NCBI RefSeq assembly: GCF_018860505.1
Contig: NZ_JAHKPU010000045.1
Coordinates: 559-55,848 of the forward strand
Direction: 5' to 3'
DNA length: 55,290 nt
From: Pacificibacter marinus
Lineage (GTDB): Bacteria; Pseudomonadota; Alphaproteobacteria; Rhodobacterales; Rhodobacteraceae
The notes beneath the pieces are model-generated. The model made no database searches. It was not told the origin of the DNA and was given only the letters and a program-made list of their open reading frames with translations. Below, in pieces: positions 8,788 through 54,804 of this stretch. A program made the translations under genes and the position numbers. Numbering within the stretch: the first letter of the stretch is position 1; each line of letters opens with the position of its first letter.

Positions 8788-8792
8788 CTGAC

Positions 8793-10121: not shown

Positions 10122-10122
10122 T

Positions 10123-10797
10123 ATGGAATGGAATTTCGCGCCTGTCATTGCCAATCTAGATATACTTCTTCTAGGGCTACTAAATACGCTAAAAGTTACA
10201 GGATTGGCGCTGTCACTCGGTGTACCTCTTGGACTTGGGCTCGCCTTGATGCGGTTGTCGCAAAACCGACCAATTTCAATGATCTCAGAGTTCATTATTG
10301 AATTCTTTCGCACCACGCCGCCATTGGTTCAGTTGTTCTGGTTTTTCTTTGCCTTTCCGATTTTGTTCAACATTAACATGACGCCATACTTGGCCGCAGT
10401 GGTGACGTTCTCGATCCAATCATCCGCGTTTTTTGCAGAGATTTTCCGCAGCGGTATCCAGTCTATTGATCACGGTCAGTGGGAAGGTTCCAAAGCCATC
10501 GGAATGACCCGAAATCAAAGCTTGCGCCGCGTGATTTTGCCCCAAGCCGTCAAGCGGATGATCCCAGCCTTTATGGAGCGTTCAATCGAGTTGTTGAAAA
10601 CGACAACACTGGTATCCACGATTGCCTACACTGATCTGATGTATCAGGCGAACAGTGTCGCACAGAGTACATTCCGTCCGCTTGAGGTCTATTCTGTGAT
10701 TGCTGCGATTTATTTCATTTTGATTTTCGGGTTCAGTCAGTTGTCGATCGTGGTCGAGCACAGACTTGCCAAATCTGGCGAAGGGACGGTGAACTAA
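10123..10797 (+). CDS. Polar amino-acid ABC transporter, permease 1
   Basis: 224 residues with about five membrane segments of the HisMQ/GlnP family. The cytoplasmic EAA-like loop (HGQWEGSKAIGMTRNQSLRRVILPQAVKRMIPAF) contacts the ATPase. FFRTTPPLVQLFWFFFAFP is the typical entry motif. It pairs with the next permease as a heterodimer; one base separates it from the preceding oxidoreductase gene. Confidence 0.92.
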   Translation: MEWNFAPVIANLDILLLGLLNTLKVTGLALSLGVPLGLGLALMRLSQNRPISMISEFIIEFFRTTPPLVQLFWFFFAFPILFNINMTPYLAAVVTFSIQSSAFFAEIFRSGIQSIDHGQWEGSKAIGMTRNQSLRRVILPQAVKRMIPAFMERSIELLKTTTLVSTIAYTDLMYQANSVAQSTFRPLEVYSVIAAIYFILIFGFSQLSIVVEHRLAKSGEGTVN

Positions 10798-38092: not shown

Positions 38093-38284
38093 AAGTTTTA
38101 GTCAGCTTTTCTAACCAAACAACGGAGCAAAGACCCGAAAAAAGGGCTGAGAACTCCGCAGTGAAATGCACTGCCTTCAAGGCTGATATCTTGAAAATAA
38201 ATTCGCGGCCCGCGTTCGGTGGGCTGTGCGCGGATAGGCTGTGTCTATCTATCAACGCTCAACATCAAAACGAACAGGGAAGTC

Positions 38285-39271
38285 ATGAAAAAACGTAACC
38301 TCTTTACCTCAGCCCTTTGCTTGGCCACATTTGCAGCTCTGCCATTTCAGGCTGCATTCGCAGATGATGCCTACCCCAACAAACCGATTCACGTCACTGT
38401 GGTTTGGCCTGCTGGTGGTGGTCATGACCTTGTTGGTCGTCTGATCGGGCACGAACTTTCAACCATCATGGACACAGCTGTCGTCGTAGACAACGTCACC
38501 GGCGCTGGCGGTTCTACTGGTATCCGTCACATCGCCAAAGCCGACCCCGATGGTTACACCATTGGCGTGATGGGGCTGCATGCGGTGTCGCAATCATTCA
38601 TGAATACAAGTGCGCCACAGCTCGATGGGCTTGATCCGCTGGCCTATGTCAGTGACGAACCGGGCGCTCTTCAGATTGCAGCAGATACTGGCATCGACAC
38701 GCTGGAAGCCTATGTCGCAGCCATGAAAGAAGACCCAATGGGGCTGATGAATGGCAATGACCCACAGGGTGGTAACTCTTTCGTCTTTGCTGAAGTGATT
38801 CCACAAGCCTTGGGCACCGATATGATGCGCTTGCCTTATCCGGGTCATGCGCCAACAGTGACCGCGCTGTTAACCGGCGAAGTGCAAACCGCGACGCTGC
38901 CGATCCCACCGATCCTAGAACATGCGCTCGCTGGCACAATCAACGTGCTTGGTGTTGCTTCTGAGACGCGTCACCCGCAGTTGCCTGATGTGCCGACGTT
39001 CAAAGAACAAGGTTACGATGTGGTTGTGAATGACTTTGTCATGCTGGTTGGGCCGGTTGGTATCCCTACTGATATTCGCGCAAAGCTGGAAGCCGGACTT
39101 CTGGCAGCAGTCAATAGCGAAGGTTTCGTTGCGGCAGCAAAGAAAAGCGGCATGGTGTTGCGCCCACTTGGTGCGACCGATGCCGCTGCTGAACTCGCTA
39201 TGCAGCAAGAGCTTGTTTATCCGCTGCTGGAAAACGCTGGACTTGTTGCGCCGGAACTCAAACGCGACTGA
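38285..39271 (+). CDS. tctC: Tripartite tricarboxylate transporter binding protein
   Basis: 328 residues from the ATG at 38285, with CAGGGAAG upstream. A signal peptide (LFTSALCLATFAALPFQAAFAD) is followed by a TctC/Bug-type periplasmic domain (YPNKPIHVTVVWPAGGGHDLVGRLIGHELS, VVDNVTGAGGSTGIRHIAKADPDGYTIG). Bug proteins bind carboxylates including aromatic and pyridine acids. It feeds TctAB encoded next. Promoter sites shared with nic genes suggest a pyridine carboxylate ligand. Confidence 0.93.
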   Translation: MKKRNLFTSALCLATFAALPFQAAFADDAYPNKPIHVTVVWPAGGGHDLVGRLIGHELSTIMDTAVVVDNVTGAGGSTGIRHIAKADPDGYTIGVMGLHAVSQSFMNTSAPQLDGLDPLAYVSDEPGALQIAADTGIDTLEAYVAAMKEDPMGLMNGNDPQGGNSFVFAEVIPQALGTDMMRLPYPGHAPTVTALLTGEVQTATLPIPPILEHALAGTINVLGVASETRHPQLPDVPTFKEQGYDVVVNDFVMLVGPVGIPTDIRAKLEAGLLAAVNSEGFVAAAKKSGMVLRPLGATDAAAELAMQQELVYPLLENAGLVAPELKRD

Positions 39272-39340
39272 AGCTAACAACGGGCGGGCCTTTGTGTGAG
39301 GTCCGCCGACATATTTCAAGGTATACCCTAGGAGCCAGAC

Positions 39341-39856
39341 ATGACACCTCCCATTGATGGATCGGCGCGCAAAACATTTGCGGCAGGATTGCTGTTTCTC
39401 TTCCTCGCAGGTGGCGGTTATCTTTTGTTGACAGACAGTCAAGGCATGTATTCGAACACGCCTATGCGGGGCGATCCGGGGCCGTTCTTTTTGTCGTCTT
39501 TGTGTCTTGGATGTCTGGCTGTGGCTGGGGGTATTCTGTCTTTGATCGGGTTGCTGGGGTTGCGAGGCCAAGGTGCCAGCTTTGTGCCAACACATCAATT
39601 CATTGAGGGTGTGCGATCTTGGGGGCTGCCGATTGGTTTTGTTGTCTCTTTGCTCGCGATGCCAACGGCCATTGAAGGGCTGGGGACGATGTTGGCTGTT
39701 GTCCTGTTTTCCTCGATCTGGATTTACGTGTTGCTGTCTAACTTGCGGGGACATGCGGTGCGACATGCTATTGAAGCACTCATTTTCGGAGCGGGCGCTG
39801 CGCTGTTCATCCAATTGATTTTTGTGCGTCTTTTGACGCTTCCACTGCCAGTTTGA
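39341..39856 (+). CDS. tctB: Tripartite tricarboxylate transporter small membrane subunit
   Basis: 171 residues with four hydrophobic segments in the TctB arrangement (AAGLLFLFLAGGGYLLL, PFFLSSLCLGCLAVAGGILSLIGL and two more). It lies between tctC and tctA, the standard gene order. AGGAGCC precedes the ATG. Confidence 0.87.
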   Translation: MTPPIDGSARKTFAAGLLFLFLAGGGYLLLTDSQGMYSNTPMRGDPGPFFLSSLCLGCLAVAGGILSLIGLLGLRGQGASFVPTHQFIEGVRSWGLPIGFVVSLLAMPTAIEGLGTMLAVVLFSSIWIYVLLSNLRGHAVRHAIEALIFGAGAALFIQLIFVRLLTLPLPV

Positions 39857-39869
39857 TCGGGGATATTAC

Positions 39870-41360
39870 ATGCTGCTTACCTCTTTTATCGACGTATTGC
39901 TCGGATATCTATCTAGCCCTCTGATGCTTGGTCTTGTCGTGCTTGGGACTGTTCTAGGTCTTGTGCTTGGGGCCATTCCTGGAATTTCATCAACGATGGC
40001 TTTGGCGATATTGATGCCCGTGACATTTACCATGGAACCAGGCGTCGCGATGCTGTTCTTGATCTCGGTGTTTATGTCGAGTGTCTATGGCGGGTCCATT
40101 TCTGCCATTTTGATGAAGCTGCCTGGTACGCCTGCGTCTATTTTTACGCAGATCGATGGTTACCCCATGGCGCAACAGGGGCGGGCAGGACATGCCTTGA
40201 ATTTTGCGCTAGTGTCCTCGACAATAGGCGGCATGATCGGTCTTGCGATGCTGGTTTTGCTTGCGCCGGTGCTGGCTGAGTTTGCCACCAATTTCCGCAG
40301 TCCAGAATTTGCCGCTGTTGCGCTTTTTGGTATTGTGATGCTGTCTTTTTCCTCAAATGGATCAACTCTGGTGGCCAGTGTTGTCGGATTTATTGGCGTC
40401 ATTTTGGGTATGGTTGGCTTTGATGCGCTGACAGATGCGCAACGCATGACACTTAATACGCCGATGTTACAATCGGGTTTGAATTTGGTGCCGATGATCA
40501 TTGGTCTGTTTGGTCTGGGTGAAATTTTGCAAAATTTGGTGGGCTTTGCGCAAACACCCAAGGTGCGGCCACAGATCGGCAAAGTGATGTTGCCACTGAA
40601 TGAACTGACGAGCCGTTGGAAAGTGATGCTGCGCGGTTCCGTTATCGGTACGTTTATCGGCGCTATCCCCGCGGCTGGTTCTGCGGTGGCGGTCTCTATC
40701 GCTTATGCGCAAGAACGGCGCTTGTCCAAGACGCCTGAGAAGTTCGGTACCGGTCATGCCGATGGGATTGTAGCGCCCGAAGCGGCTAACAGTGCCTCTG
40801 TTGGCGGCTCTCTTATTCCACTCATTGCTTTGGGGGTGCCGGGGGATACGATTACGGCCGTTCTGATGGGCGCATTGATGTTGCATGGCTTGACGCCGGG
40901 ACCGTTGCTGTTTGCTAACAATCCGACCTTTGTGGCTTGGATTTATGTATCGGTTCTTTTGGCGCTGATCGCGACGCTGGTGGTTGGTCTTGGCATGATC
41001 CGCGCGGCAGTGCTTGTGACGCGGATCCCTCCACAGTTGATGTATGTTTTTATCGCGGTGTTTTGTGTGATCGGCGCTTTCGCCATCCGCAATGACATGA
41101 ACGACGTCTACGTGATGATTGCCTTTGGCGTGGTGGGGTTTGTCTTTTCGCGATTGAGTTTGCCAGTAACGCCGATGGCCTTTGGTTTGATCCTTGGGCC
41201 AATCCTCGAAGAAAACTTACGGCGTAGCCTTATGATCAGTCGGGGGTCGTGGTCAATTTTTCTGGAGCGTCCGATTTCGGCAGTACTTATACTGATTTGC
41301 GTGTTTCTGATCTCAATACCGCTGCTGAAATGGAGTTGGGTTAAACTTAGAGCGTTGTGA
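39870..41360 (+). CDS. tctA: Tripartite tricarboxylate transporter large membrane subunit
   Basis: 496 residues, the usual TctA length, with about 12 membrane segments and the conserved GAIPGISSTMALAILMPVTF near the start and VPGDTITAVLMGALMLHGLTPGPLLF in the second half. It forms the transport channel with TctB. It is the last gene of the Rieske/TTT group. Confidence 0.94.
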   Translation: MLLTSFIDVLLGYLSSPLMLGLVVLGTVLGLVLGAIPGISSTMALAILMPVTFTMEPGVAMLFLISVFMSSVYGGSISAILMKLPGTPASIFTQIDGYPMAQQGRAGHALNFALVSSTIGGMIGLAMLVLLAPVLAEFATNFRSPEFAAVALFGIVMLSFSSNGSTLVASVVGFIGVILGMVGFDALTDAQRMTLNTPMLQSGLNLVPMIIGLFGLGEILQNLVGFAQTPKVRPQIGKVMLPLNELTSRWKVMLRGSVIGTFIGAIPAAGSAVAVSIAYAQERRLSKTPEKFGTGHADGIVAPEAANSASVGGSLIPLIALGVPGDTITAVLMGALMLHGLTPGPLLFANNPTFVAWIYVSVLLALIATLVVGLGMIRAAVLVTRIPPQLMYVFIAVFCVIGAFAIRNDMNDVYVMIAFGVVGFVFSRLSLPVTPMAFGLILGPILEENLRRSLMISRGSWSIFLERPISAVLILICVFLISIPLLKWSWVKLRAL

Positions 41361-41675: not shown

Positions 41676-42458
41676 TTATCGGCACAAAAGAGCATTTAAT
41701 TCAACGATCACTTTGGACAAGTCTAAGGTTTCTTGAGGTTCACCCAAAACCTCGCTTATGGCTGCGCGGGTCATGCCCCCAATAATGCCATCAATTGGCC
41801 CGGGGTCCGCCCCCGCGAGCGTCAGTAACCGTTGCACCGTAAATCCAGGTGTTCCCTCAGGAATTGCAGCAAGACCACAAGGGTCTGTAACGGCCTTTTC
41901 TATATCCTCACCTTGGGGTCGCACGGCCTCAATCTCTGTGGCCTCCTGTTCAGTGTCTTGCTGCTCAATAGCTTCGGATTCGTCCTCTACATCAGAGATC
42001 GCAAGCGGTTGCGTCAACGCATGAGTTTGCCCTTCCGTGTTTACGGCCCGCTCAGAAAGGGAGAGTTTTTGCTCAACGGCTTCTGCCGACAAATTTGGAT
42101 CGCGCAAACAGGATGCAAGCAGGTCTGCTATGTTGATGGTGCCTTCGTTTGGATTGCCTGCAACATTACGATGGCAGACTTCATCCACACATGTGATGGC
42201 GATAGACCAATCTGGCTCTGATTTCGATTCAGCCAATACGGCCTCATCGTTGGCAAAAATTTGGTAGAAATACCCAAAGATAAACCCTTCTTGCCAAAGG
42301 CCCGGAAAATTTGGAGACGGGACATCAACATGCCGTGTTTCAACCGATGTGGCACCAGGGAAAGCCCTATCCATCGCAGGTCCTACGCATGTTTCAGCGG
42401 TCACAGGCTGGATTTGTAACATTAGGGCGCACAGAATGGATGGTGCTATCTGTTTCAC
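41676..42458 (-). CDS. Secreted protein with unrecognised N-terminal domain and peptidoglycan-binding-like C-terminus
   Basis: 260 residues with a signal peptide (about 1-21). Residues about 36-120 contain VDVPSP at 44-49, then QEGFIFGYFYQIFANDEA and a cysteine pair, and resemble the N-terminal domain of the outer-membrane protein at 53296-54804. An acidic, Glu-rich linker (about 150-190) follows. The last 65 residues (GTPGFTVQRLLTLAGADPGPIDGIIGGMTRAAISEVLG) look like a PG_binding_1 repeat. Last gene of the leftward polysaccharide operon, overlapping its neighbour by four bases. Function unknown; a periplasmic anchor or partner of the exporter is plausible. Confidence 0.7.
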   Translation of the reverse strand: MKQIAPSILCALMLQIQPVTAETCVGPAMDRAFPGATSVETRHVDVPSPNFPGLWQEGFIFGYFYQIFANDEAVLAESKSEPDWSIAITCVDEVCHRNVAGNPNEGTINIADLLASCLRDPNLSAEAVEQKLSLSERAVNTEGQTHALTQPLAISDVEDESEAIEQQDTEQEATEIEAVRPQGEDIEKAVTDPCGLAAIPEGTPGFTVQRLLTLAGADPGPIDGIIGGMTRAAISEVLGEPQETLDLSKVIVELNALLCR

Positions 42459-43822
42459 TGCGCGCTCCGGATCAACGGCCCAAACGCACGGAAAGCCAAT
42501 GCCGCGAGGACGACAGCATTCGTATTTGTGGTTACAGATCCATTGATCGAGCCATCCGCTTCATAAAGACCTTCCGGCCAGCCACGATCAGGATCACCCA
42601 GTGGCGCAAGGGCCGTCACCAATTCTTTCGCATATTCCGTTCCAAACAATGCATACCATGCAAAAGCAGTCTTGGTTGTCACTGTGCGTTTGCTATCCAG
42701 TCGATCACCTTGGAAGGTCATAACAGCCCAAGGCGCCCCCCCGCCCCAGACAGAGGAATAGACAAAATATGGTGCTTCATCGAGATGAGATTCACTGACT
42801 GCCGTCAAAATTCCAGTCTCAGTGTAGCGCGCTTCCTGTGCCTTATAGATCGCAGTCGCAAAACGATGCGACCGTGCATCAAAGCCAAATTCCAAGCCGT
42901 CGAAGACATAGGGTTCACTCACAACAAAAGCGGGCGTTACGTTGCGATGAAGTCGATCATCTACGGGGATTGGCTGCCCCAAGACATCTTTGATCATGAG
43001 ATGTTCTTCCGCATCATAGGCGCGATACATATCAAAGCCAAAAAGCATCATCGCCTTGGCCGCATATTGCCCGTAGCCCACACGGCCTTCTTGATCCCGA
43101 CGCAACATGTCATCTGACAAATTCCCGCCAATCAGCTGACCATCTTCAACCATCTGAGACAGATCCCAATAATCTAAGAGCGCGTTCACTTGTGGAGCGA
43201 GTTCAGGATAATGCTGCGTGATTTGAGCTAAAGTTCCGACCAACCGCGCGATGTCCAAAGCAGACCAGCCCAGCCCGCGTTCCACAGGTTTATTGGCGTA
43301 ATTGACCAGTTCCGCCGTTTGTACATTGTAAGCTTTGTTGGGTAAAATGTCGTCAAACAGCCGTATTTTGGTCAGCGTATCCAAAGTCAGAGAGAGCCGC
43401 GACTTTGCCTCTTGCTCATCAATAAGCCCCAATAGGTTCGCTGAAATGACGGCCACAAAATACGACCCTGTTTCCCACATCGTGGTGGAGGGGTATTTAT
43501 CGGCTGAGTTCACAAGCCCTGTTTCGGGATGCGTGTTGTTCTCAAAATAACGCCAAGCAATCTGGGCGTAAGCGAGATCATCCTGTGACGTTTCCCCCAC
43601 AATCGCGAGTGACAAGGGTGTGATGTCATCAAAGGCTGCCATGGGGGAGGCATCAGTTAATTCCACGGCGGGCTTTTCATTAGACTTCAATTTCATGGCC
43701 TGTGCATCAGTGTTTTTCGCGATTATATTTTCCAATCCTATGACCATGACCAGGCCAACGGCTAAGGCCCCCAGAAAGATGATGTGGCTTCTTGCCTTTA
43801 TTAAGTTTTCACGAAAACTCAT
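42455..43822 (-). CDS. DUF3131 protein, membrane-anchored
   Basis: 455 residues. An N-terminal membrane segment (HIIFLGALAVGLVMVIGL) is followed by a DUF3131 domain: AYAQIAWRYFENNTHPETGLVNSADKYPSTTMWETGSYF, LPNKAYNVQTAELVNYA and GWSALDIARLV. It is a paralogue of the larger protein at 46799-48532. DUF3131 resembles glucoamylase-type alpha/alpha barrels and occurs beside polysaccharide synthases, so a periplasmic glycan-modifying role is inferred. It overlaps both neighbouring genes by four bases. Confidence 0.8.
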   Translation of the reverse strand: MSFRENLIKARSHIIFLGALAVGLVMVIGLENIIAKNTDAQAMKLKSNEKPAVELTDASPMAAFDDITPLSLAIVGETSQDDLAYAQIAWRYFENNTHPETGLVNSADKYPSTTMWETGSYFVAVISANLLGLIDEQEAKSRLSLTLDTLTKIRLFDDILPNKAYNVQTAELVNYANKPVERGLGWSALDIARLVGTLAQITQHYPELAPQVNALLDYWDLSQMVEDGQLIGGNLSDDMLRRDQEGRVGYGQYAAKAMMLFGFDMYRAYDAEEHLMIKDVLGQPIPVDDRLHRNVTPAFVVSEPYVFDGLEFGFDARSHRFATAIYKAQEARYTETGILTAVSESHLDEAPYFVYSSVWGGGAPWAVMTFQGDRLDSKRTVTTKTAFAWYALFGTEYAKELVTALAPLGDPDRGWPEGLYEADGSINGSVTTNTNAVVLAALAFRAFGPLIRSAQ

Positions 43823-45651
43823 TTTGATTGCCCTTCTTCTTTTTCAGCAGGCTGCCACATGGCCGCCGCGATGATTCCTGCCATAGCAATGCAATTGTTC
43901 AGCCCCCAAAGGGCATTGGCCAAAACCCCGCTCGTAGAATGCGAGGTGCCGCCCAAAACCAAAGCCCCTATCGCCCAAAGAACGCCTAAAATCGTCAGGA
44001 CGACAACCGCGATTTGAGGACGTACAAGAGCTAGAAATGTGCCCGCTTGACGCGCCTTTGGCGTGACCTTGAACGAAATCTTTTCGCCTCTCGCGATGGT
44101 CCAGATGGCTCTCAGTCCTAAAGGGAAAAACGATAGATAACTGGCTTTAGCTGGATAGCCATCGACCCCCCACGTTCCGACCATGATCGCAAGTTCAAGC
44201 GTGACCAGAAATGGAATGAGATGCAAAAAGAAATCTGTCGAATACGCCGACACTGGGGAAAGCCCCGTCAAAAGATACAGGACTGGCGCGAAAAGGAAGA
44301 TAACGTTCCAAAGCGGCGCAAGGTAGGAATAAAAGGTCGTCGCATACATCAAACGCTGAGGCAAACTTAGCCCTTTGCGAAACAAGGGATTGTCATTGAC
44401 CAAGATATCAAGGCTGCCGCCTGCGTATTTAAATCGCTGCACAGTCCAAGTCACAAGGTCTTGAGGCGACAACATTTTGCTTTCCACAATCGGGTGCATT
44501 TTGGACTTCCAGCCGCGTTCATGATCGGAATGCAATACGATAGATGTGTAAATATCTTCTGAAACATGAAATTTATAAGGGGTCAGAACCTCAGTCGCAG
44601 CCGCTTCAGTTTTGATCGCTTGCATCAACTCAGGCGCGACTTCGCGTTCTTTGCTAGATACAGTGATGGTCTCCTCGACAGCCCAAGTGCGTTCTTCGAC
44701 TTTTTGCCCAAAGCTGCGTAGCGCCGCCTCCATCACAGCCTCACGGCGGTGGATCGACCCCGCGCCACAGCAAAACGATGCATTCACCCAATTTCGACGC
44801 CGTTGTATAATGTCGTAAAACATCTTTGGGTCGTTCACGAACGGATCATCACCAACGGTCACAGGTCCGATAACTTTTTCAACAATACGCCCAAATGCAC
44901 CCCCTCGGGCTCCGAATTTTTGCGTCAACTTTTCTGGCAAGCGCTCGCCTTCAGGCAGGTCATAAAACCATTGCGGCGTTTGAACCCATGCCATTTTAGG
45001 ATCACGAAAATAGCCCAGTGTGTGTTCCAAAAGCGTCGGAAAGGGGCGCGTGTCAGCGTCGCAAATCACAAGGAAATCGCCATGGGTTTCGTCCATTGCG
45101 TTGCGTAAATTCCCTGCCTTGAACCCTTCGTTTGTCGTGCGTGAAATGTAATTTGCGCCCTCTTCTTCGGTCACGCGCCGCATGTCGGGGCGGCGTCCAT
45201 CATCGAGAATATGTATGCGCACATCGATGGGATGAGGATAGGTCATCCGTTTCGCGTCTTGAATACCAAGGCGCACCAATTCAGGGTCTTCGTCATAGGT
45301 GGCAAACATCACGTCGACCGCGATCGGACGGTCACTTTCAGGATGGCTCTGCACGACATCACCCAAAACCGCAGGCGGTGTTTCTATTTTGATGGGCTCG
45401 TCTTTCCACAGATTAAAGACGAATAACAACATCCCAAAATAGGCGCAGGTTTCAGCCAATACCAAAGGGATGGCAAACCACATGGCGTCAGGGTTTAATG
45501 ACCCTGTCCAGCGCCACCAGATGTACCAGCCCCCGACAACCAAGGCCACAGTTGCTAAGAACTGCCAAAGACTTTCACGCCTCGCCGAATAGGGCAAAGG
45601 TGGTGGCGGAACGCGGTCTTCGAATTTAAGAAAATAATCGTCCGTCATCAT
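43819..45651 (-). CDS. Cellulose-synthase-like family 2 glycosyltransferase
   Basis: 610 residues. Two membrane segments (about 30-50 and 57-80) precede the GT-A domain, with DDG at 150-152, DAD at 198-200, QTPQ at 224-227 and the catalytic-base region SEDIYTS (364-370). The position of the usual Q-x-x-R-W motif reads QRFKY (405-409). Further membrane segments form the C-terminal half. An insertion of about 65 residues separates FCCGAGSIHR from SEDIYT. It probably polymerises and extrudes a beta-linked glucan. I see no PilZ domain, so direct c-di-GMP activation is not evident. It is coupled by 4-base overlaps to both neighbours. Confidence 0.87.
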   Translation of the reverse strand: MMTDDYFLKFEDRVPPPPLPYSARRESLWQFLATVALVVGGWYIWWRWTGSLNPDAMWFAIPLVLAETCAYFGMLLFVFNLWKDEPIKIETPPAVLGDVVQSHPESDRPIAVDVMFATYDEDPELVRLGIQDAKRMTYPHPIDVRIHILDDGRRPDMRRVTEEEGANYISRTTNEGFKAGNLRNAMDETHGDFLVICDADTRPFPTLLEHTLGYFRDPKMAWVQTPQWFYDLPEGERLPEKLTQKFGARGGAFGRIVEKVIGPVTVGDDPFVNDPKMFYDIIQRRRNWVNASFCCGAGSIHRREAVMEAALRSFGQKVEERTWAVEETITVSSKEREVAPELMQAIKTEAAATEVLTPYKFHVSEDIYTSIVLHSDHERGWKSKMHPIVESKMLSPQDLVTWTVQRFKYAGGSLDILVNDNPLFRKGLSLPQRLMYATTFYSYLAPLWNVIFLFAPVLYLLTGLSPVSAYSTDFFLHLIPFLVTLELAIMVGTWGVDGYPAKASYLSFFPLGLRAIWTIARGEKISFKVTPKARQAGTFLALVRPQIAVVVLTILGVLWAIGALVLGGTSHSTSGVLANALWGLNNCIAMAGIIAAAMWQPAEKEEGQSK

Positions 45652-46796
45652 GCGCCTGCCTCTTTTGATTTACGCGCCTCCCACGGCGTCGGGCCTAGTC
45701 CGATGGTCCAAGCAAGTAGCCCGATCTTTGATATCCCTAAACTTACGAAAAACGACATCGGCAGCGCCACAGCGAACCGCAACAAAACCAATGCTGTGGG
45801 CGACAACATGTCTGATGTGCCTGATTTGAACAGCGCAATATCAAACAGATCAATCACCGCAGGATGAACAAGGTAAACACCGAATGAATATTTGGCAATT
45901 TTAGACCACAGTGGTGACCAGTCACGATATTGCCCGCCCAGAAAAATCAGGAAAATACAGATCGGCATGAGAAAGTGGCCATAAAAATCCCAACCACTGC
46001 GCACGCCCCACGCGCCGTTTTGCACCGCATAAGCAAAAAACGGGATCGTCGCCACATAAGCAAGCGCAGCAAAGTAAAATCCACCACGGCGCAGCAAGCG
46101 TGATTCACCGCGTGGAATGCCATCTTTCCAAAGCCCGTAAAGCGCAAAGGCCGCCAAACCATAGCCGACATAGCCTAAAATTTTGATCGCACGAAGAATG
46201 TAGTCACGTACTTCGGCCTCAAGCCCGAGCCCCCAGATAAACCCTTGCGTGTTGTTCATGATGCCCAGCGTCACGAATAAGGTTAGCCCAAGTATTGGGT
46301 AACGGGTCGCGCCTCGCATGAACGGGTAAAACAAAAAGAGCGCAAAGAGCGTTGGTAGAAAGTGCATGTGGTACTGAACTTTGCCAAGAAGAAAGTAGCC
46401 AAACCAATTTTTGATGTCAGAAATCTGATCCCACATATAGGGCGCATAGTTAAAAGCATCGGCTTTGAGCAGCCGAAAAAATGCGTAGAACACCACCCAA
46501 AACACAAACGGAACCAACAACCGTTTGGCCTGCATGCCGATGGCGCTGGAATAGCTCGGCATTTTCTTATCCACCCGCATCGCCATTAGGAAAAGCGAGA
46601 ACAAAAAGAACATTTCAGAGCCCGAAAATTCACCGAGCGACCGTAAGACCACGGGAATCAAACGCTCTGAGGTCTCCACTTTGGCGAAAGGTTGGCCTGC
46701 GAAATCTGTTGAAGAGTGGATCAAAACCACGCCCATTGCGGCAAACACGCGGTTTGCATCAAACCAAACCAGTCTCGGTTTGCCAGCTGCGCTCAT
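45648..46796 (-). CDS. Membrane acyltransferase (acyltransferase 3 family)
   Basis: 382 residues with about ten membrane segments. The N-terminal WFDANRVFAAMGVVLIHSS carries the catalytic-type His of the acyltransferase 3 family; FGVYLVHPAVIDL is near the end. It is expected to acylate (acetyl or succinyl) the nascent glycan, as OpgC or WssH-like proteins do. It lies between the second DUF3131 gene and the glycosyltransferase within the same operon. Confidence 0.87.
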   Translation of the reverse strand: MSAAGKPRLVWFDANRVFAAMGVVLIHSSTDFAGQPFAKVETSERLIPVVLRSLGEFSGSEMFFLFSLFLMAMRVDKKMPSYSSAIGMQAKRLLVPFVFWVVFYAFFRLLKADAFNYAPYMWDQISDIKNWFGYFLLGKVQYHMHFLPTLFALFLFYPFMRGATRYPILGLTLFVTLGIMNNTQGFIWGLGLEAEVRDYILRAIKILGYVGYGLAAFALYGLWKDGIPRGESRLLRRGGFYFAALAYVATIPFFAYAVQNGAWGVRSGWDFYGHFLMPICIFLIFLGGQYRDWSPLWSKIAKYSFGVYLVHPAVIDLFDIALFKSGTSDMLSPTALVLLRFAVALPMSFFVSLGISKIGLLAWTIGLGPTPWEARKSKEAGA

Positions 46797-46798
46797 AT

Positions 46799-48532
46799 TC
46801 AGTTCCCCGCTGGAATTGGACAGGAGCTGGCCAAAACTTTACGCGGTGTCGGCGGAGCAAGATTGTGTTTTTCAGGCTGACACTCGGTTGCTGCTGTCTC
46901 TCCTGTTGTCGGCACAGCGCGGCAGTACAAGAATTCTTCCAACGGGATAACCGGATCGAGTTGGGTTGGGTTCTCGCATGCACAGCATGGCACGACTTCT
47001 TCCATCAAGCGCGGATGACACTTGTTGTCACGCAAGCCTGTTCCGGCATAGGCCGTGTCCCAGAATTGCGCAGATGTGTTGATTTGCTGCAAGATTGGCC
47101 CTTGCACCTTATAAAGCAAAGCCGCGAGGATGATGCCATTGTTGTTGGCCGTTTGCAGTGGGATATAGCCGTTTCCGTTCTCATACAGTCCTTCGTAAAA
47201 CCCTGCTTCGGGATCATAAAGATCCGCGACGCTTTCAAACAAAAGATCAGTATAATCTGTATCCCAAAGCGCCCATAGACCCACCGCGGCCTTGGCAGCA
47301 ATCGCTGCGCGGTCAGGTTGATATTCCCCTGTCGGGTCTAATGTGTTCCACGCATAGCCGTCCGCGAAAATCGAGTCATACACAAAGTAAGGTTTTCCGT
47401 TGACCTGATGTTCAGACCGCGCTGTGATGATGCCCGTTTGTTCGTAACGACGTTGTTGAACCAGATAAATGCGGTTCGCAAACTCAGCCCGCCAGCCATG
47501 GCTTGCGGTCAGTCCGTCATAGGACTTATCAGAGGGCAAATCCCAACCCATCTCAAGTCCGTCAAGGATATACCCTTCGGTTAAAACATAGTTTTGGTTT
47601 TTGAAAACACGTGGATCGCGACCATCATAGGGCACTTTCACATCGTAAATCGTGGTATAGGCAAGAGGCTCAGGTGACATAGCTTTGTCAACGTCGAAAC
47701 CCCAAAGAGCAAAGCCTTTGGCGGCGTATTCTTCATACCCTAACCGGCCTTCTTGCACGTATTGCGCGGTTCCATCACCACGTTTAAAGGCCCCAAACAT
47801 GCTGCCATCATCGTTGACCATATTGCAAAAGTTCCAGCGCATTGGAACGTTGTCTACACTGTTTGCAAGGTAAGGGTTGCGCTCTTTAAGAATGCGAAGC
47901 CAAACCAGCAACCGCCCGATATCGAGCGCGGACATACCGACCTCGCCAGCTTCGTTGGCATAGTTAACTTTTTCCCCTGTTTCAGTGTTATACACTTTGT
48001 TGGGGGCTTCCTTATTGTATAAATCAAGGTTGCGCAGCGTGTTTAATAGCTTAGTGGCGCGCGTGTCGAATTCGCGCTTATCAATGATACAAAGCTCACG
48101 TGCTGCGACCAGCGCACTGATATAAGAAGCCGTGTCCCACATCGTGGTTGACGGATAAGAGCCAACAGCATTCACAAGTCCTGTTTCTGACTGAAACCGT
48201 TTTTCGAAATAAGACCATGCAATTTTTGCCATCTTAAATTCACGGTCAGTCAAACGGCCAGATCGCCCGAAATGCGGTCTAGAGATATCCCCTTCTTCAT
48301 GCGCGCACTGACCAGAATTCATTCCATCAAAATCAAGAATGAGGGGTGTTTCTGAACGGATCGTGACGCTGTTGTACTCAGTCCCATTGATAGACACGTT
48401 GTCAATTGTCATGGATCGCGGCTGGACAGCCGTTTCAGACTGAGCCCCAGATGACGTTGGAAATGCCAATACAACGGCGGCACATGCGCCGGCCCAGGCC
48501 GTCTTCAAAAAGGTTTCACTTTTCATTCGCAT
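46799..48532 (-). CDS. DUF3131 protein, secreted, larger paralogue
   Basis: 577 residues with a signal peptide (WAGACAAVVLAFPTSSGAQS). The DUF3131 domain shares long stretches with the protein at 42455: KIAWSYFEKRFQSETGLVNAVGSYPSTTMWDTASYI, APNKVYNTETGEKVNYANE and MSALDIGRLL. The C-terminal 80 residues are cysteine-rich (CHP, CCACE, CRAV, CQPE), unlike the paralogue, and suggest disulfide bonds in the periplasm or outside. First structural gene of the operon, 48 bases downstream of the RsbW-like gene. Confidence 0.8.
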   Translation of the reverse strand: MRMKSETFLKTAWAGACAAVVLAFPTSSGAQSETAVQPRSMTIDNVSINGTEYNSVTIRSETPLILDFDGMNSGQCAHEEGDISRPHFGRSGRLTDREFKMAKIAWSYFEKRFQSETGLVNAVGSYPSTTMWDTASYISALVAARELCIIDKREFDTRATKLLNTLRNLDLYNKEAPNKVYNTETGEKVNYANEAGEVGMSALDIGRLLVWLRILKERNPYLANSVDNVPMRWNFCNMVNDDGSMFGAFKRGDGTAQYVQEGRLGYEEYAAKGFALWGFDVDKAMSPEPLAYTTIYDVKVPYDGRDPRVFKNQNYVLTEGYILDGLEMGWDLPSDKSYDGLTASHGWRAEFANRIYLVQQRRYEQTGIITARSEHQVNGKPYFVYDSIFADGYAWNTLDPTGEYQPDRAAIAAKAAVGLWALWDTDYTDLLFESVADLYDPEAGFYEGLYENGNGYIPLQTANNNGIILAALLYKVQGPILQQINTSAQFWDTAYAGTGLRDNKCHPRLMEEVVPCCACENPTQLDPVIPLEEFLYCRAVPTTGETAATECQPEKHNLAPPTPRKVLASSCPIPAGN

Positions 48533-48580
48533 GCTCCGTTCTGGATGAGAATATATCTTCGGGTACGTTCGGCCCGATTT

Positions 48581-48994
48581 TTAATTTCGCGCCTGAAACT
48601 TCAAACTCAGACATCTACGATTTTGCACAGGACCATATTCAACCCCGTCAGCACATTCTAAAATCAGCCCTAGTCCCCGACCACTTTCGGCCATGACATC
48701 CACATCAGACAACGCGCGCGCTTGCTTGCGAATATCAAATGCCGCGGTCCCATCAGGGTCAAAAACATCAACGATTAACAGCTCCCCGTCGAAATCCAAC
48801 ATCAGGTCGATTGGCGCATCTTTTTGTTCCGTTTTTGCGTGCAGCACCAAGTTCGCCAAGGCTTCGCTCATACAGATGTCAAATCGCATGAGCACTTCAT
48901 CAGCCACTTTGTCTTGCAAATGACTTTTCAACGCCAAAACCATCGGATCGACCGCTTCGAGTTGGTTCTGCATATGAAAAGTCAATGCGCTCAC
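48581..48994 (-). CDS. RsbW-like anti-sigma / serine kinase ATPase
   Basis: 137 residues of the HATPase_c_2 family: N-box CMSEALANLVLHA, G-box SGRGLGLILECADGV and the Asp-containing VDVFDPDGTAAFD between. Such proteins phosphorylate a STAS partner or sequester a sigma factor or other target. The gene overlaps the STAS gene by four bases. No sigma factor gene is in the window, so its output partner is unknown. Confidence 0.85.
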   Translation of the reverse strand: MSALTFHMQNQLEAVDPMVLALKSHLQDKVADEVLMRFDICMSEALANLVLHAKTEQKDAPIDLMLDFDGELLIVDVFDPDGTAAFDIRKQARALSDVDVMAESGRGLGLILECADGVEYGPVQNRRCLSLKFQARN

Positions 48995-49335
48995 AGACTT
49001 TCACTCATGGCCTGCACCGCGGCGTCAACATCTAGGTAGCTTTTAAACACCCTATCCATTCGACAAATTTTAAACATTTGAGTGACATCGCTGTTCAATC
49101 CGCAGACAACCAAATCTCCTCGGTGTCCAATCCGTTTGAGTACACCAGTCAATGCACCCAATCCTGATGAATCCAGAAAAGAAACCTCTTTAAAATCGAT
49201 CACAAGTTGCGATGCTCCGCCTTCAATCAACGCTATGACCTCTTCTTTAAAAGCCTTTGAATTGATGGCTGTCAGGCGTTCCACACCAGGGCGCACAACA
49301 ACAATATGCGGGGCATACTTTGACGTATGTATCAT
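48991..49335 (-). CDS. STAS-domain anti-anti-sigma factor
   Basis: 114 residues, a single STAS domain with the phosphorylation loop FLDSSGLGAL (Ser56/Ser57). The phosphorylated form would be the substrate of the SpoIIE-type phosphatase encoded next door and the product of the RsbW-like kinase. It overlaps both neighbouring genes by four bases, so the three proteins are made together. Confidence 0.9.
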   Translation of the reverse strand: MIHTSKYAPHIVVVRPGVERLTAINSKAFKEEVIALIEGGASQLVIDFKEVSFLDSSGLGALTGVLKRIGHRGDLVVCGLNSDVTQMFKICRMDRVFKSYLDVDAAVQAMSESL

Positions 49336-50522
49336 GAATTTATCCTTTTTAGGGCGACCACAGTTAAGTCATCTTCCAATGCGCGACCACCGCGCCACTC
49401 TTTCAAATCTTGAACAATAATGTCTGGCACCTCATCGGTATCGCACTGGTGGTTTTGCTCGATGACGGAACGCAACATCCCGCGTCCAAACGGAACGCCA
49501 TGTTCGTTTTCCGCTTCGCCAGCGGCATCTGAACATAAAACCAGCAAGCCCCCTTCTTCGAAGGCAAAGACATCGTTCTCATACGAAAAATGAGAAAACA
49601 TTCCGACAGGAAATCCGCCTTCCCCCACTGAGGTCGCTTGCCCATTCGTATCCACATAGGTAGGAGACGGATATCCGGCCTGACAAAAATCCATATGGCC
49701 CGTATCCGTGTCGATGATCGCACAAAACATCGTGAAATAGTCGTCATTGTCAGCGGCGCTAAACCGTTGATTGAGATTGGACACCAAACCAGCAGGGTCA
49801 GGTTTTCCGTCTTTACCACATGCGGCATTACAAAAGAATTCAGGTGTAATCAGATGCCCGATGGCAACCGACAAAAGCGAGGCGTGAATGCCGTGACCAG
49901 ACACGTCCACCGCATAAAGGCCCAGCTTATTTTGTGGTAAAGCGAAGCACCCGAACATATCGCCGGACACCATCGCAGAGGGTACAAAAGCAGATGAAAC
50001 ATGGATGCCACCGATGTCGCGCTGAATCACGGGTAAAAGTTGCCTTTGCGCATCAGCAGCCGCTTTCAGATCTTCTTGAATACGGCTGTTGATTTCTTTC
50101 AAGATGTGGTGCTGATTTTGTCGCTCTCTCGCATGATGAACAAGACGAGAGGCAACATGGATGCGCGCCTTCAAGCGTGTGGGGTCATTATCTTTTGTCA
50201 GGAAATCATCGACGCCCGTATCCAATGCCTCGGCACTGGTTTCGCTTTGCCCACTGCCTGTCAGCATAATGATATGAACATAATGGTCTAAGTCCAAACC
50301 ACGCACAGCACGCGTGAGCTCGATACCATTCATGCGCGGCATATCAAAATCGGTGATTAAAATTTGAGCGCCGGTGGACTGAACCAATTCCAACGCCTCG
50401 ACGCCATCTTCAGCGACACACGCTTTGTGCCCCAAATGCTCGATCATTCGAGCCAGATAGGTGCGCTGAACCAAGTTATCCTCGGCGACGATAATGTCTA
50501 AGGGCATTTCCATGTCACACAA
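49332..50522 (-). CDS. Response regulator with SpoIIE/PP2C phosphatase output (HsbR/RsbU type)
   Basis: 396 residues. The N-terminal receiver (about 8-125) has phospho-acceptor Asp58 (LITDFDMPRMNG), an acidic pocket in VAEDN and the switch region MLTGSG...LTKDN. A coiled coil (about 125-165) links to the PP2C domain with metal-binding aspartates in SGDMFG, AVDVSGHG and EDDLTVVAL. Phosphorylation should change its phosphatase activity on the STAS protein. The architecture matches P. aeruginosa HsbR, which acts below an Hpt protein. First gene of the leftward run. Confidence 0.92.
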   Translation of the reverse strand: MCDMEMPLDIIVAEDNLVQRTYLARMIEHLGHKACVAEDGVEALELVQSTGAQILITDFDMPRMNGIELTRAVRGLDLDHYVHIIMLTGSGQSETSAEALDTGVDDFLTKDNDPTRLKARIHVASRLVHHARERQNQHHILKEINSRIQEDLKAAADAQRQLLPVIQRDIGGIHVSSAFVPSAMVSGDMFGCFALPQNKLGLYAVDVSGHGIHASLLSVAIGHLITPEFFCNAACGKDGKPDPAGLVSNLNQRFSAADNDDYFTMFCAIIDTDTGHMDFCQAGYPSPTYVDTNGQATSVGEGGFPVGMFSHFSYENDVFAFEEGGLLVLCSDAAGEAENEHGVPFGRGMLRSVIEQNHQCDTDEVPDIIVQDLKEWRGGRALEDDLTVVALKRINS

Positions 50523-50992
50523 GCCTCCATTCTAGCAGGCCAACAGTTCAAATCTAAAGCAAACAAAAAATTCAGGTCACTTGGTTTCCCAAATCCAAGC
50601 CAGTCGACGTTAAACATCACATAGCGGACCAAGTTGCTTCGTTGCTATCATCCTTAACCAAAAAGGACACATAAACAACTTAAAGATGCGCCCCTAACTG
50701 AACTTATCGCGCTCAAAAATGTCAAAATACGCACAACTTCGCGGCAAAATAATGCAACTTTTCTTAGGATAAACGCGCAGGTCCACGCGCCATAGGAAGA
50801 CATAAACAGGATATTTTATTTTTGACTCTGCACAGAATTGCAGCAGTATTTCTTGAATATTCTCAATTTTATCCTTGCCTTAATCGGCCAGCTAGGACTG
50901 ACTAAGGCAAAAGACACAGGCAAGCCAAGTGAAGAACACATGACGGTGCATTTGCTGAAATGTCTCAACAGACGTGATGAAAGGACGAATCC
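50523..50992. other. Divergent intergenic region between the response regulator and H-NOX genes
   Basis: About 470 A/T-rich bases that must carry both promoters. No clear operator palindrome was found. A possible 18-codon leader frame lies at its right end (separate entry). Confidence 0.4.
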
Positions 50993-50996
50993 ATGA
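50940..50996 (+). CDS. Possible leader peptide overlapping the H-NOX start
   Basis: The ATG at 50940 opens an 18-codon frame (MTVHLLKCLNRRDERTNP) whose TGA overlaps the H-NOX ATG as ATGA. A purine-rich GTGAAGAAC lies upstream. This could couple H-NOX translation to a leader; chance is equally possible. Confidence 0.25.
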   Translation: MTVHLLKCLNRRDERTNP

Positions 50997-51535
50997 AAGG
51001 CACGATCTTTGTTGAATTGATCAAAATGGCAGAAAATGCCTTTGGCGAGGACACTGTAGATGAGGTGTTAGACAAAGCCGATCTTGAAAATGATGGGGCG
51101 TTTACCACAGTCGGAAATTATCCCTGCTCGGAATTGGTCAAAATCGTTGTCGCCTTTAGCGCACATTCAGGCATTGACGCGGAGACATTGCAAAAGATGT
51201 TTGGGCATTGGATGTTGACTCATTTCGTTGAACATTATCCGCAGTTTTTTGCTGACAAAAAAGACGCATTTTCTTTGCTGGATTCCATCGAAAATGAAAT
51301 CCATGTCGAAGTTCGAAAGCTCTACCCCGAGGCAGAGCTGCCCACCTTTATTACGGAACGGACAGCTCCGAACCAAATGATGATGGTCTACGAGTCGCCT
51401 CGTCCTCTAGGGGCTTTTTGCCACGGAATGATTGAAGCCGCCCTCGCACATTTTGACGAAAAGGGTGGCATCACAAGTCAAGTCAATCTTGCCAAACCAA
51501 CAGTCACAAATTTTGAGATTACTCTGCAATCATAA
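50993..51535 (+). CDS. H-NOX haem nitric-oxide sensor
   Basis: 180 residues covering a complete H-NOX domain. The proximal haem ligand is His104 (IHVEVRKLYP), the propionate-binding motif is Tyr133-Ser135-Arg137 (YESPR), and Pro117 fits the haem-distorting proline. The distal-pocket Tyr used by O2-binding members is replaced by Phe at about 142, so NO rather than O2 is the expected ligand. AAAGGACG precedes the ATG. It is 13 bases upstream of the hybrid kinase, the usual H-NOX/HnoK pairing, and would regulate that kinase's autophosphorylation in the cytoplasm. Confidence 0.95.
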   Translation: MKGTIFVELIKMAENAFGEDTVDEVLDKADLENDGAFTTVGNYPCSELVKIVVAFSAHSGIDAETLQKMFGHWMLTHFVEHYPQFFADKKDAFSLLDSIENEIHVEVRKLYPEAELPTFITERTAPNQMMMVYESPRPLGAFCHGMIEAALAHFDEKGGITSQVNLAKPTVTNFEITLQS

Positions 51536-51548
51536 GGTATTATCTGAA

Positions 51549-53288
51549 ATGAGCTCTTCCGACGATACCCGCGTTTCACGCAGCAGATATAACCGTGAAT
51601 GCGCGGCGCGCGCCGAAGCTGAAAAATTGCTGGAACGCAAGAGCCGTGAACTGTTCGAGGCAAACACGGCCCTAAATGCACATTCACAGCAATTGACCGA
51701 AGCCGTCGAGGAGCGGACAGCTGAGCTTGTTCAAGCCTTGGAGCGCGCTGAGGCCGCTTCAGTCGCACGGAGCAGATTCATTGCGACTATGAGCCATGAA
51801 ATACGTACCCCTTTGGGTGGGCTCTTGGGGATGATTGATCTGCTGGCAATGGATGAGGTGGACGCGGGAAAACTGGAGCTTTTGAACTACGCCAAAGCTG
51901 CAGGCACCGGACTGAGCCGGATCGTCAATGATGTGCTCGACTTTTCAAAAATGGAAGCGGGCGTCTTTGTTTTCGAGGAGGAGAGCGTTGATATTCGCGC
52001 CTTGGTGAAAAGCATATCGATGCTGTACACGTCACATGGCAAAGGCACAGCACGCACCATCACGCTTCAAATCGACGACAGTGTTCCGCAGCTGTTCTTG
52101 AGCGACGCGACACGCATTCGGCAAGTCATATCTAATTTGATTAGCAACGCCCTGCGGTATTCAACTGAGGGACCAATCATCGTGCGCGCGACAGCCACGC
52201 CACATGCTCAAGGCGCACTGCTGCGTTGTGAGGTCGAAGATTTTGGCGTCGGCATACCGCCTGAAAAATTCAACGATCTGTTCAAAGACTTTTCTCAGGT
52301 TGCCAATCCATTAACCGTCGCGGCACAGGGCACAGGATTGGGCCTCGCGATTTGCAAACGTATCATGGACGGATTGGGCGGTCGCGTCGGCGTTGAGAGC
52401 AAACAAGGAGCTGGGTCCACGTTTTGGATAGAGCTGGCTGTCACCGTCGTCAGTGCCTCAGCGTCCCGTCCTTATCAGGATTCGGATGCACAGATAGCAA
52501 CGCCCCCTCCTTGCATCGCAGGCAAACACGTCCTGATTGCCGAAGACAATATCATCAACCAAAAAATGCTTCTCGCTTACGCCCAACGCATGGATATGAC
52601 AGCGGATCTGGCAGAGAACGGCCGGATCGCAGTTGAGAAATTCGCCCCAGGAAAATACGATCTTATCTTGATGGATATTGCTATGCCAGAAATGGATGGG
52701 ATCGAAGCCACACGTCAAATTTTTGCCAAATGGCCGAAAGACTCTGTGCCTCCAATCCTTGCGCTAACGGCCCATGTTGCGGATGCGATTGAGGCCGAGG
52801 CAAATGAAGTCGGAATCACGCGTATCTTGTCTAAGCCTATTCCTTATGACGAATTGAAATCCGCTTTAGAAGCCACCCTCGGCCTCACGTCCATCACCGC
52901 ATCCGCGCAAGAGGCGACCTCGCCAGAGGATCAAACCGCCTCTGTCGAAGAGCAACTGCTGGCGATGATGGACACAACTGTCGGTGAAAACATGTTAAGC
53001 ATCTTCTCTGCTGAGGGGCTCATCGATTTAGCGGAAAAATTTGTGACAGATTGCAACCAAAGGCTCGACCTTTTAATCGCCGCAGCAGAATCCAGCGATA
53101 TAGACGCCGCCTCAAAACAAGGACATTCGATCAAAGGCGCATGCCTTGCCATGGGATTTGAAAGCATGGCTGAACTCGCAAAACGTATTGAACACCACTC
53201 GACTGAGACGACAAAGGCGACGATAATAGAAATTGCGCAAGAGCTCTCAGACGAAATTGCTCAACTCAACGCGATTCTAAAGTCATGA
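51549..53288 (+). CDS. Hybrid histidine kinase with receiver and Hpt domains, H-NOX partner
   Basis: 579 residues from the ATG at 51549, 13 bases after H-NOX; the frame reaches back into H-NOX but without family character. A coiled coil (about 15-75) is followed by HisKA with His83 (FIATMSHEIRTPLGG), HATPase (N-box QVISNLISNALRYS, DFGVGIPPEKF, GTGLGLAICKRI), a receiver with Asp376 (LILMDIAMPEMDG) and an Hpt with His526 (GHSIKGACLAMGF). No membrane segment or sensor domain of its own is present, so H-NOX probably supplies the signal. The Hpt can pass phosphate to an external response regulator; the one at 49332 is the nearest candidate. Confidence 0.93.
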   Translation: MSSSDDTRVSRSRYNRECAARAEAEKLLERKSRELFEANTALNAHSQQLTEAVEERTAELVQALERAEAASVARSRFIATMSHEIRTPLGGLLGMIDLLAMDEVDAGKLELLNYAKAAGTGLSRIVNDVLDFSKMEAGVFVFEEESVDIRALVKSISMLYTSHGKGTARTITLQIDDSVPQLFLSDATRIRQVISNLISNALRYSTEGPIIVRATATPHAQGALLRCEVEDFGVGIPPEKFNDLFKDFSQVANPLTVAAQGTGLGLAICKRIMDGLGGRVGVESKQGAGSTFWIELAVTVVSASASRPYQDSDAQIATPPPCIAGKHVLIAEDNIINQKMLLAYAQRMDMTADLAENGRIAVEKFAPGKYDLILMDIAMPEMDGIEATRQIFAKWPKDSVPPILALTAHVADAIEAEANEVGITRILSKPIPYDELKSALEATLGLTSITASAQEATSPEDQTASVEEQLLAMMDTTVGENMLSIFSAEGLIDLAEKFVTDCNQRLDLLIAAAESSDIDAASKQGHSIKGACLAMGFESMAELAKRIEHHSTETTKATIIEIAQELSDEIAQLNAILKS

Positions 53289-53295
53289 TATCAAA

Positions 53296-54804
53296 CTAAA
53301 ATTTGAACTTATAGGTCACAGATAGATTGCCGCCCAGAATGCCAGGCCCTGGCGCATCGCCCCGATTCCACGCCCATCTGTTGTTGCTATAATTGCTATA
53401 CGACAGCGACCAATCATCAGCGATTTTGTAGCTGGCGGTATAACTGTAATCTGGCTGATATGAAGTTTGCACACCCGGAGCATAAAGATAGGCCGTTCCA
53501 CCGACACGAAGCCGATCATTCACCGCATAACCACAGGAAAAGTTTAAGCTTTCGCTCGCAGGATTGGGAAATCCTATGCTGGCAGTGCAAGGTATTTTTT
53601 TATCAAACGGCAGTTCGATCACCGGAAGTTTGTAACTTGCGCGCAAATTCCCATCTTTCAATCCATCGAAAAAATTACCATTGGGCCCGTTAAACTGAGC
53701 CGAATAATTACTGTATCCTACATTGATTTTATCGCTGACCTGATAATTAAAAGCATAGGTGAAATCTGGATCAGATGTCGCCTTGTCGCTTGAATTCGCA
53801 TAGCCGACCAAAGCGAAGCGAAAGGACAGTCTAGGCGTCAGTTTGGTACTACATCCCAAACTTGCGCGCGGTTTTGCAAACTGCAAAGTGCCCGCCCCAG
53901 ACGCATCTTGCAGGCTTGTGGTCCCCGTTATCGCACAGGCCAAATCAAGCCGTTCCCAAAAGGTTTGTTGAGCCGTCTCTTGAACCGGCTCAGGTGGTGT
54001 TTGAGGGTCTGCGCCAGCCTGTGGTTGTATCGCCGCATCACGTTTAGGTGCTGGTTCAACAGGAGAGGACGACACAATGAGTTCCACCGACTGATGGCAG
54101 TCATCTGGAACAAAGGCAGCAAGATCAGGGCAGGACGCATTTAGCGCATCCAAAGGCTGTGGATCAGGCTCATCAACCTCGACCAAATCTTCAAGATTTT
54201 GAGCGTCTGCGTCAGGATCTTCCTCAACAAGAGAGACATCATCAGCCCCCTGTGGAGCAAGCGCATCAACGGCAATTTCTGACGTCAAAGTGACAAGTCC
54301 AATATCCGATTGCCCCTGCTCACTAGCCTCATCAGATACAAGGTTATCAAGCTGTGTGTCCCCACGAGATCCTGTCTCTGCCAGAATCCAGCGCGCGACA
54401 AATTGCGCCACGTCTTGCGCATTTGTAGGGGCCGGCGGAGCAGGCCTTTTCTCGCCCGTTGCATAGATAGTCGATTCTGCGCCGTCTGCACCCAAGATCA
54501 GGCATGATAGGCCCTCGGTGCATGTGACATCAAACAGGTTGCGATGTCGCCCAGCGTTGCTCATGACGTGAGCTGCCCCATTTGGGTAAATCACATAAAT
54601 CCAGTCCCCCAAAACTCCGCGTTGATACCGTGTTGGGTGCAATGGACTTGGAACATCGACAATAATCTCTTCAGCGCCTTCGACCAAAGGGATGGCAGTG
54701 TTGCCAAAAGGTTGTGGTATTCTCAAGTCGAGATCAGCCGTTTGCGACTGTGCCCCAAAGGTTACGAAAAGACTTGCCGCCGTGGCCTTAAGCAAAAACT
54801 GCAT
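53296..54804 (-). CDS. Outer-membrane beta-barrel protein with shared DVPSP N-terminal domain
   Basis: 502 residues from the ATG at 54804, where a signal peptide begins (LLKATAASLFVTFGAQSQ); an upstream ATG at 54876 would add 24 residues that spoil it. Residues about 40-120 hold VDVPSP (49-54), QRGVLGDWIYVIYPNGAA and paired cysteines, like the 41676 protein. A Pro/Glu/Asp-rich linker spans about 125-290. The C-terminal 210 residues alternate short beta strands (FRFALVGYAN, INVGYSNYSAQFNG, DWSLSYSNYSNN) and end in Phe, an outer-membrane barrel signature. It ends seven bases from the kinase stop (convergent). Possibly an exporter or secretion pore for the polysaccharide. Confidence 0.7.
   Translation of the reverse strand: MQFLLKATAASLFVTFGAQSQTADLDLRIPQPFGNTAIPLVEGAEEIIVDVPSPLHPTRYQRGVLGDWIYVIYPNGAAHVMSNAGRHRNLFDVTCTEGLSCLILGADGAESTIYATGEKRPAPPAPTNAQDVAQFVARWILAETGSRGDTQLDNLVSDEASEQGQSDIGLVTLTSEIAVDALAPQGADDVSLVEEDPDADAQNLEDLVEVDEPDPQPLDALNASCPDLAAFVPDDCHQSVELIVSSSPVEPAPKRDAAIQPQAGADPQTPPEPVQETAQQTFWERLDLACAITGTTSLQDASGAGTLQFAKPRASLGCSTKLTPRLSFRFALVGYANSSDKATSDPDFTYAFNYQVSDKINVGYSNYSAQFNGPNGNFFDGLKDGNLRASYKLPVIELPFDKKIPCTASIGFPNPASESLNFSCGYAVNDRLRVGGTAYLYAPGVQTSYQPDYSYTASYKIADDWSLSYSNYSNNRWAWNRGDAPGPGILGGNLSVTYKFKF

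Follow-up and report, generated by a model that had tools for sequence, protein, structure and literature searches.

We analyzed a 55,290-nucleotide stretch (hereafter, the window) of Pacificibacter marinus contig NZ_JAHKPU010000045.1. The window lies on contig C8 of its genome, which measures 3.65 Mb. Within 13 kb of the window, eleven genes bring together a predicted nitric oxide (NO) sensor, a hybrid kinase, a partner switch of the RsbU/V/W type, and genes for glycan synthesis. Here, we describe this candidate NO-responsive glycan locus and consider how its parts could be wired together.

Organization of the locus

The sensor pair occupies the + strand. Its first gene (50993..51535) encodes an H-NOX protein, a predicted NO sensor that matches Pfam HNOB (E 4.1e-39, 134.5 bits) and PDB 6ocv, a "Heme NO binding domain protein" (E 3.5e-34). 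Its motifs include His104, presumably the proximal histidine, YxSxR at 133, whose residues we assume to play their usual roles, and HVEVRK. After a gap of 13 bases, the same strand encodes a soluble hybrid kinase (51549..53288) with Pfam HisKA, HATPase_c, REC, and Hpt domains; its start is probably the ATG at 51549, as judged from the open reading frame and alignment. The Hpt histidine, His526 (His565 of the longer open reading frame), is invariant in an alignment of 6 kinases and in one of 15.

Divergent from this pair, on the - strand, lies a trio that makes up an RsbU/V/W-type set. Specifically, a response regulator–phosphatase (RRP; 49332..50522), in which the domain matches are REC and SpoIIE (PP2C) only and Asp58 is invariant in 5 aligned regulators, is followed by a STAS protein (48991..49335) with a DSSG phospho-site motif at residues 55-58 and by an RsbW-like kinase with a HATPase_c_2 domain (48581..48994). 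The TTG start of RRP at 50522 is doubtful because an in-frame ATG, the likely start, lies at 50513. Overlaps of 4 bases join RRP to STAS and STAS to RsbW.

A gap of 48 bases separates the RsbW-like gene from the glycan operon on the same strand, which encodes, in order, DUF3131-a (46799..48532), a membrane acyltransferase (Acyl_transf_3; 45648..46796), a CelA-like GT2 synthase with DDG, DAD, SED, and QRFKY motifs (43819..45651), DUF3131-b (42455..43822), and a small protein (41676..42458). Three of the four joins are 4-base overlaps, and the DUF3131-a and acyltransferase genes are 2 bases apart. A search of the 48-base gap for terminator-like sites on the - strand gave none, although this is a weak test. 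A + strand stem-loop with a T run also lies inside the gap, at 48559-48577.

An earlier sequence-only reading of this DNA had named these parts and positions, the overlaps of the trio, the 48-base spacing, and the residues His526 and Asp58. Open reading frames, Pfam domains, and alignments agree on each. The same reading described a five-gene glycan operon; those five genes stand, and a sixth, at 53296..54804 on the - strand, had been omitted. This gene encodes a predicted outer-membrane protein that shares an N-terminal domain with the small protein (one-sequence hidden Markov model search, E 1.1e-11; BLAST, 4e-5) and whose model has 12 barrel strands; Pfam yielded no match in it. In many Paracoccus-type loci, the barrel gene comes after the small-protein gene on the same strand. 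Judged by this domain match and conserved linkage, the barrel gene belongs to the glycan set and moves with the operon. Therefore, the sensor pair sits between parts of one glycan locus.

The GT2 protein scores 226.9 bits against the cellulose synthase model TIGR03030, far below the cut-off of 699.1, and no PilZ match was found in it up to E 1. It is related to cellulose synthase, but by the TIGR03030 cut-off and the C-terminal PilZ domain it does not class as BcsA. The predicted structure of DUF3131-a has an (alpha/alpha)6 fold, as in beta-1,2-glucanase and the cyclisation domain of cyclic glucan synthase. Invariant Asp/Glu residues are present. DUF3131-a is 99% identical to its counterpart in P. 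marinus F2R14, and DUF3131-b, which has one N-terminal transmembrane-like segment, is 36% identical to DUF3131-a.

Conservation of the switch and the synthase

Two samples bear on conservation: 149 genomes of the family, including the window's own (G000), and the related operons obtained by scanning genome contigs with DUF3131-a. The scan gave 351 relatives, of which the best 80 were examined. The same kind of GT2 is present in 54 of these, making 55 operons with the window; gene counts cover the flanks available at each locus, and some contigs are short. The order, motifs, and linkage of the parts can be read directly from these genomes.

Within the family, H-NOX occurs in 108 of 149 genomes, DUF3131 in 34, and the full set in four: G000, G007, G127, and G097, the last three being L105, L110, and L122 of the DUF3131-a scan. 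G015 and G123 possess the trio together with DUF3131 genes, but no H-NOX is linked to these. Among the best 80 relatives, the H-NOX/kinase pair is linked in 14 of the 54 related operons, under 13 genus names. In 12 of these 14 operons, H-NOX and the regulator are divergent; in the other two (L110, L144), H-NOX lies downstream on the operon strand. The sequence-only reading had named a lack of conserved linkage as evidence against itself; linkage is instead found, in two arrangements. The H-NOX/glycan linkage is more than chance.

STAS is present in all 55 operons, the regulator and RsbW in 50 each, and H-NOX in 15. The constant part of the locus is STAS plus the synthase operon. Both the regulator and RsbW are missing from L131, L132, L137, L151, and L153. 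Two of these, L131 and L132, have DSTAIS at the STAS motif (DSSG to DSTA), which gives the impression of a switch falling out of use. Further afield, L211 and L212, from another class of the same phylum, have regulator and STAS genes near GT2 and three DUF3131 genes; in L212, a Pfam nucleotidyl transferase and HATPase_c_2 lie between STAS and GT2. In Azotobacter beijerinckii (L152), two DUF3131 genes, a barrel-like protein, and a GH3 enzyme precede a regulator-STAS-HATPase-acyltransferase-GT2 series. Because these three loci share the pairing, the switch, as judged from gene content, accompanies the synthase more widely than does the NO input, and the comparison suggests that this switch is old and conserved.

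The regulator is likewise tied to these genes. A dedicated regulator of the RRP type, defined by a match above 450 bits (at least 469 in practice), exists in six of the 149 family genomes (G000, G007, G127, G097, G015, and G123), and DUF3131 genes adjoin it in all six. Matches at E <= 1e-40 exist in 110 genomes; those beyond the six are a paralog scoring 142-264 bits. Within the sampled genomes, the RRP group is therefore set apart (at least 469 versus at most 264 bits). The window genome carries a separate paralog, here called RbaY-like after RbaY of Rhodobacter capsulatus, with 28% identity to RRP. In 21 of 21 paralog loci, picked from the regulator matches with the window genome included, a stand-alone Hpt gene lies alongside on the other strand; Hpt input to the RbaY-like switch is thus likely. 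Stand-alone Hpt genes of this sort are found at L203 (7819-8151) and L213-L232.

Probably exchangeable sensors and the Hpt domain

The kinase linked to the switch varies. Thirty of the 39 rows of the GT2 tree that lack H-NOX have another kinase match, and nine, some at short contigs, have no strong one. Pfam shows all eight of the non-H-NOX kinases sampled to be PAS-containing hybrid kinases. Some are encoded between RsbW and DUF3131-a, and others downstream of the operon or divergently from it. Mapped onto the GT2 tree, the H-NOX label requires 5 changes and all four states 14, whereas shuffling gives a mean of 29.4; because score thresholds defined the classes, the exact count should be read loosely. 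Because most other operons carry different kinases, H-NOX looks like one of several exchangeable, plug-in sensors.

Most kinases at the glycan operons show an Hpt match. With a threshold of E <= 0.001, one is present in 14 of the 15 H-NOX kinases linked to glycan genes, versus 1 of 10 H-NOX kinases away from glycan operons. A separate check found no Hpt motif in the L144 kinase, though the histidine column is invariant in all 15. Among the sampled PAS kinases, seven of eight match, five of them under Pfam's own cut-off. The exception, L151, lacks the regulator; L131 also lacks it, yet has an Hpt match. The stand-alone Hpt genes next to the RbaY-like regulator lend the pattern additional support.

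A proposed route from NO to glycan

We consider it fairly probable, from gene content and by analogy, that this is a glycan-synthesis locus under a partner switch for which NO is the input in the window's lineage. Without NO, the H-NOX-associated kinase would autophosphorylate and pass phosphate to its own receiver, then to its own Hpt at His526, and then to Asp58 of RRP. Phosphorylated RRP would dephosphorylate STAS at the DSSG serine, and free STAS would promote output of the synthase operon. When NO binds H-NOX, the kinase would be turned off, the RsbW-like kinase would rephosphorylate STAS, and glycan production would drop. We infer the inhibition by NO, the phosphotransfer, the dephosphorylation of STAS, and the sign of the response from characterized systems. 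In particular, NO should lower glycan output here because, in Vibrio fischeri, HnoX inhibits HahK, phosphorylated SypE favors biofilm, and SypA is active when unphosphorylated (PMC12369376, PMC4517449).

Several observations weigh against so fixed a route. H-NOX is absent, within the available flanks, from 40 of the 55 operons. Of 349 genomes of the phylum, 8 contain both H-NOX (E <= 1e-10) and DUF3131 (E <= 1e-40), and linkage of the two is confined to the window genome. In G123, the H-NOX/kinase pair is unlinked from the trio, and the locus lacks the synthase and acyltransferase. No conserved NNR/FNR-like site was found between H-NOX and RRP. The Hpt-bearing H-NOX kinases essentially form one clade; because they are close kin, the association of Hpt with these kinases may reflect one event. 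Hpt also occurs in L070 (G056) with neither a dedicated regulator nor a DUF3131 match, and a weak Hpt match is retained in L131 despite regulator loss. The chain from NO to glycan put forward in the sequence-only reading is partly backed, by the synteny and by the Hpt pattern, with H-NOX as one of several exchangeable sensors; the chain itself is a prediction. We note relatives, L096 (G123; 8415-10251) and L122 (4967-6646), in which genes are gone from the glycan operon (synthase and acyltransferase missing at the locus) or an internal stop is present.

The switch could instead act elsewhere. HsbA-type systems have outside partners, and free STAS or RsbW here might target a sigma factor or an enzyme of cyclic di-GMP (c-di-GMP) metabolism, with the glycan operon responding only transcriptionally. 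We regard this as a serious prospect, albeit one that falls short of even chances. It is encouraged by R. capsulatus RbaV/RbaW, which affects gene transfer agent expression and for which a cognate sigma factor has been proposed (PMC3999984), and by the second H-NOX of the window genome, which adjoins a GGDEF diguanylate cyclase gene (L078, contig C27, 70-1692), so a c-di-GMP route may exist. Because of this neighbor, there may be two separate H-NOX outputs in one cell. An outside target sits poorly with the constancy of STAS beside the synthase, which extends to the five operons without RRP and RsbW and to two genomes of another class, and domain searches of the eleven proteins of the set revealed neither a sigma factor nor a GGDEF domain.

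The wiring could also differ upstream. H-NOX and its kinase could be mere neighbors, or could chiefly feed another regulator, for example of the LuxR type, leaving RRP to other kinases. A LuxR-type regulator is present in 15 of the 54 operon loci, of which two have H-NOX; another, at L065, lies near an H-NOX that has no glycan genes beside it. Nonetheless, the window genome lacks a close copy (best 33%), and both the Hpt pattern and the repeated placement of the H-NOX/kinase pair beside the operon, in two arrangements, speak against these alternatives. Kinase and GT2 distances also correlate (rho 0.89 across 15 H-NOX loci), though common descent alone could yield that. We find both alternatives, a mere neighbor and a chief link to another regulator, quite unlikely. 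By analogy with SypG, the LuxR-type regulator is possibly a transcriptional second arm. Genes for such regulators occur at L105 (4320-4934), L107 (16712-17323), L113, L116-L119, L139, and others. H-NOX and partner-switch systems differ in sign, and NO might raise glycan production, for instance if unphosphorylated RRP were the active phosphatase or if NO stimulated the kinase; given the V. fischeri precedent, we hold this reversal to be unlikely.

We speculate, tentatively and against our own expectation, that free STAS attaches directly to the GT2 synthase complex and turns it on, in place of the c-di-GMP/PilZ control of cellulose synthase. If so, the locus would be a c-di-GMP-independent, phosphoserine-gated polymer synthase with a sensor socket that swaps H-NOX or PAS kinases, most with their own Hpt plug.

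Relationship to known systems

In Pseudomonas aeruginosa, HptB-HsbR-HsbA likewise runs from an Hpt to a regulator-phosphatase and then to a STAS protein; HptB is a free Hpt, and the kinase part is fused in HsbR. We know of no H-NOX at that locus, nor of H-NOX or glycan genes in the Bacillus cereus RsbK system. The sequence-only reading took HptB-HsbR-HsbA as its precedent, and V. fischeri provides a better one (PMC12369376): its HnoX-HahK-SypF-SypE/SypA pathway is the nearest known wiring. There, HnoX-HahK acts through SypF (Hpt) on SypG and on SypE, SypA, and the SYP polysaccharide (PMC12369376, PMC4517449).

An NO sensor, hybrid kinase, Hpt, phosphatase-active regulator, STAS protein with a conserved serine, and polysaccharide output are common to both, in the window as predictions from sequence. 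As in Syp, the STAS regulator is encoded with polysaccharide genes in every operon examined, and just as relatives of SypA are retained in species lacking SypE, STAS persists in the five operons without RRP and RsbW. V. fischeri hnoX-hahK form their own operon, which we take to lie outside the syp cluster, whereas the window's whole system lies in 13 kb. Moreover, V. fischeri places its Hpt in other proteins (SypF, LuxU) and combines kinase and phosphatase in SypE; in the window, the H-NOX kinase has an Hpt of its own fused to it, and RsbW is a separate gene from RRP. The window's glycan would come from a CelA-like synthase, unlike SYP.

Other systems share portions of this design. In a related bacterium, R. 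capsulatus RbaY-RbaV-RbaW also comprises REC-PP2C, STAS, and HATPase proteins, but there rbaY lies apart from rbaVW, and the gene transfer agent is what the system influences (PMC3999984). In Vibrio parahaemolyticus H-NOX-HqsK-LuxU, a hybrid kinase upstream of an Hpt is inhibited by H-NOX once NO is bound; unlike in the window, the Hpt is stand-alone and the output is quorum sensing (PMC6759604). In B. cereus RsbK-RsbY-RsbV-RsbW, a hybrid kinase can activate the RsbV phosphatase RsbY, but the output is sigma-B (via PMC3999984).

The logic is thus already known from V. fischeri. New here are the gathering of all parts in a single locus, the fusion of the Hpt to the sensor's kinase, the exchange of sensors, and a STAS-synthase pairing that stays constant. 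The sequence-only reading knew of no description of the complete combination, and among the papers listed by searches of open-license literature, no title or abstract opening describes the locus. The main value of the locus is as a compact system for finding the target of a stand-alone STAS protein, a target that, for proteins such as SypA, was stated to be unknown (PMC4517449, 2015; PMC8256260, 2021). Here, the target may be the neighboring synthase. Because sensor, relay, switch, and synthase lie together and STAS sits beside the synthase in every operon examined, the question becomes directly testable. The locus could also show one output module keeping its switch while sensors change, and it offers a possible second NO-to-matrix route beside the H-NOX/diguanylate cyclase pair of the same genome. 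Finally, the neighbors of the locus include TctC and TctA of a tripartite tricarboxylate transporter (38219-41360).

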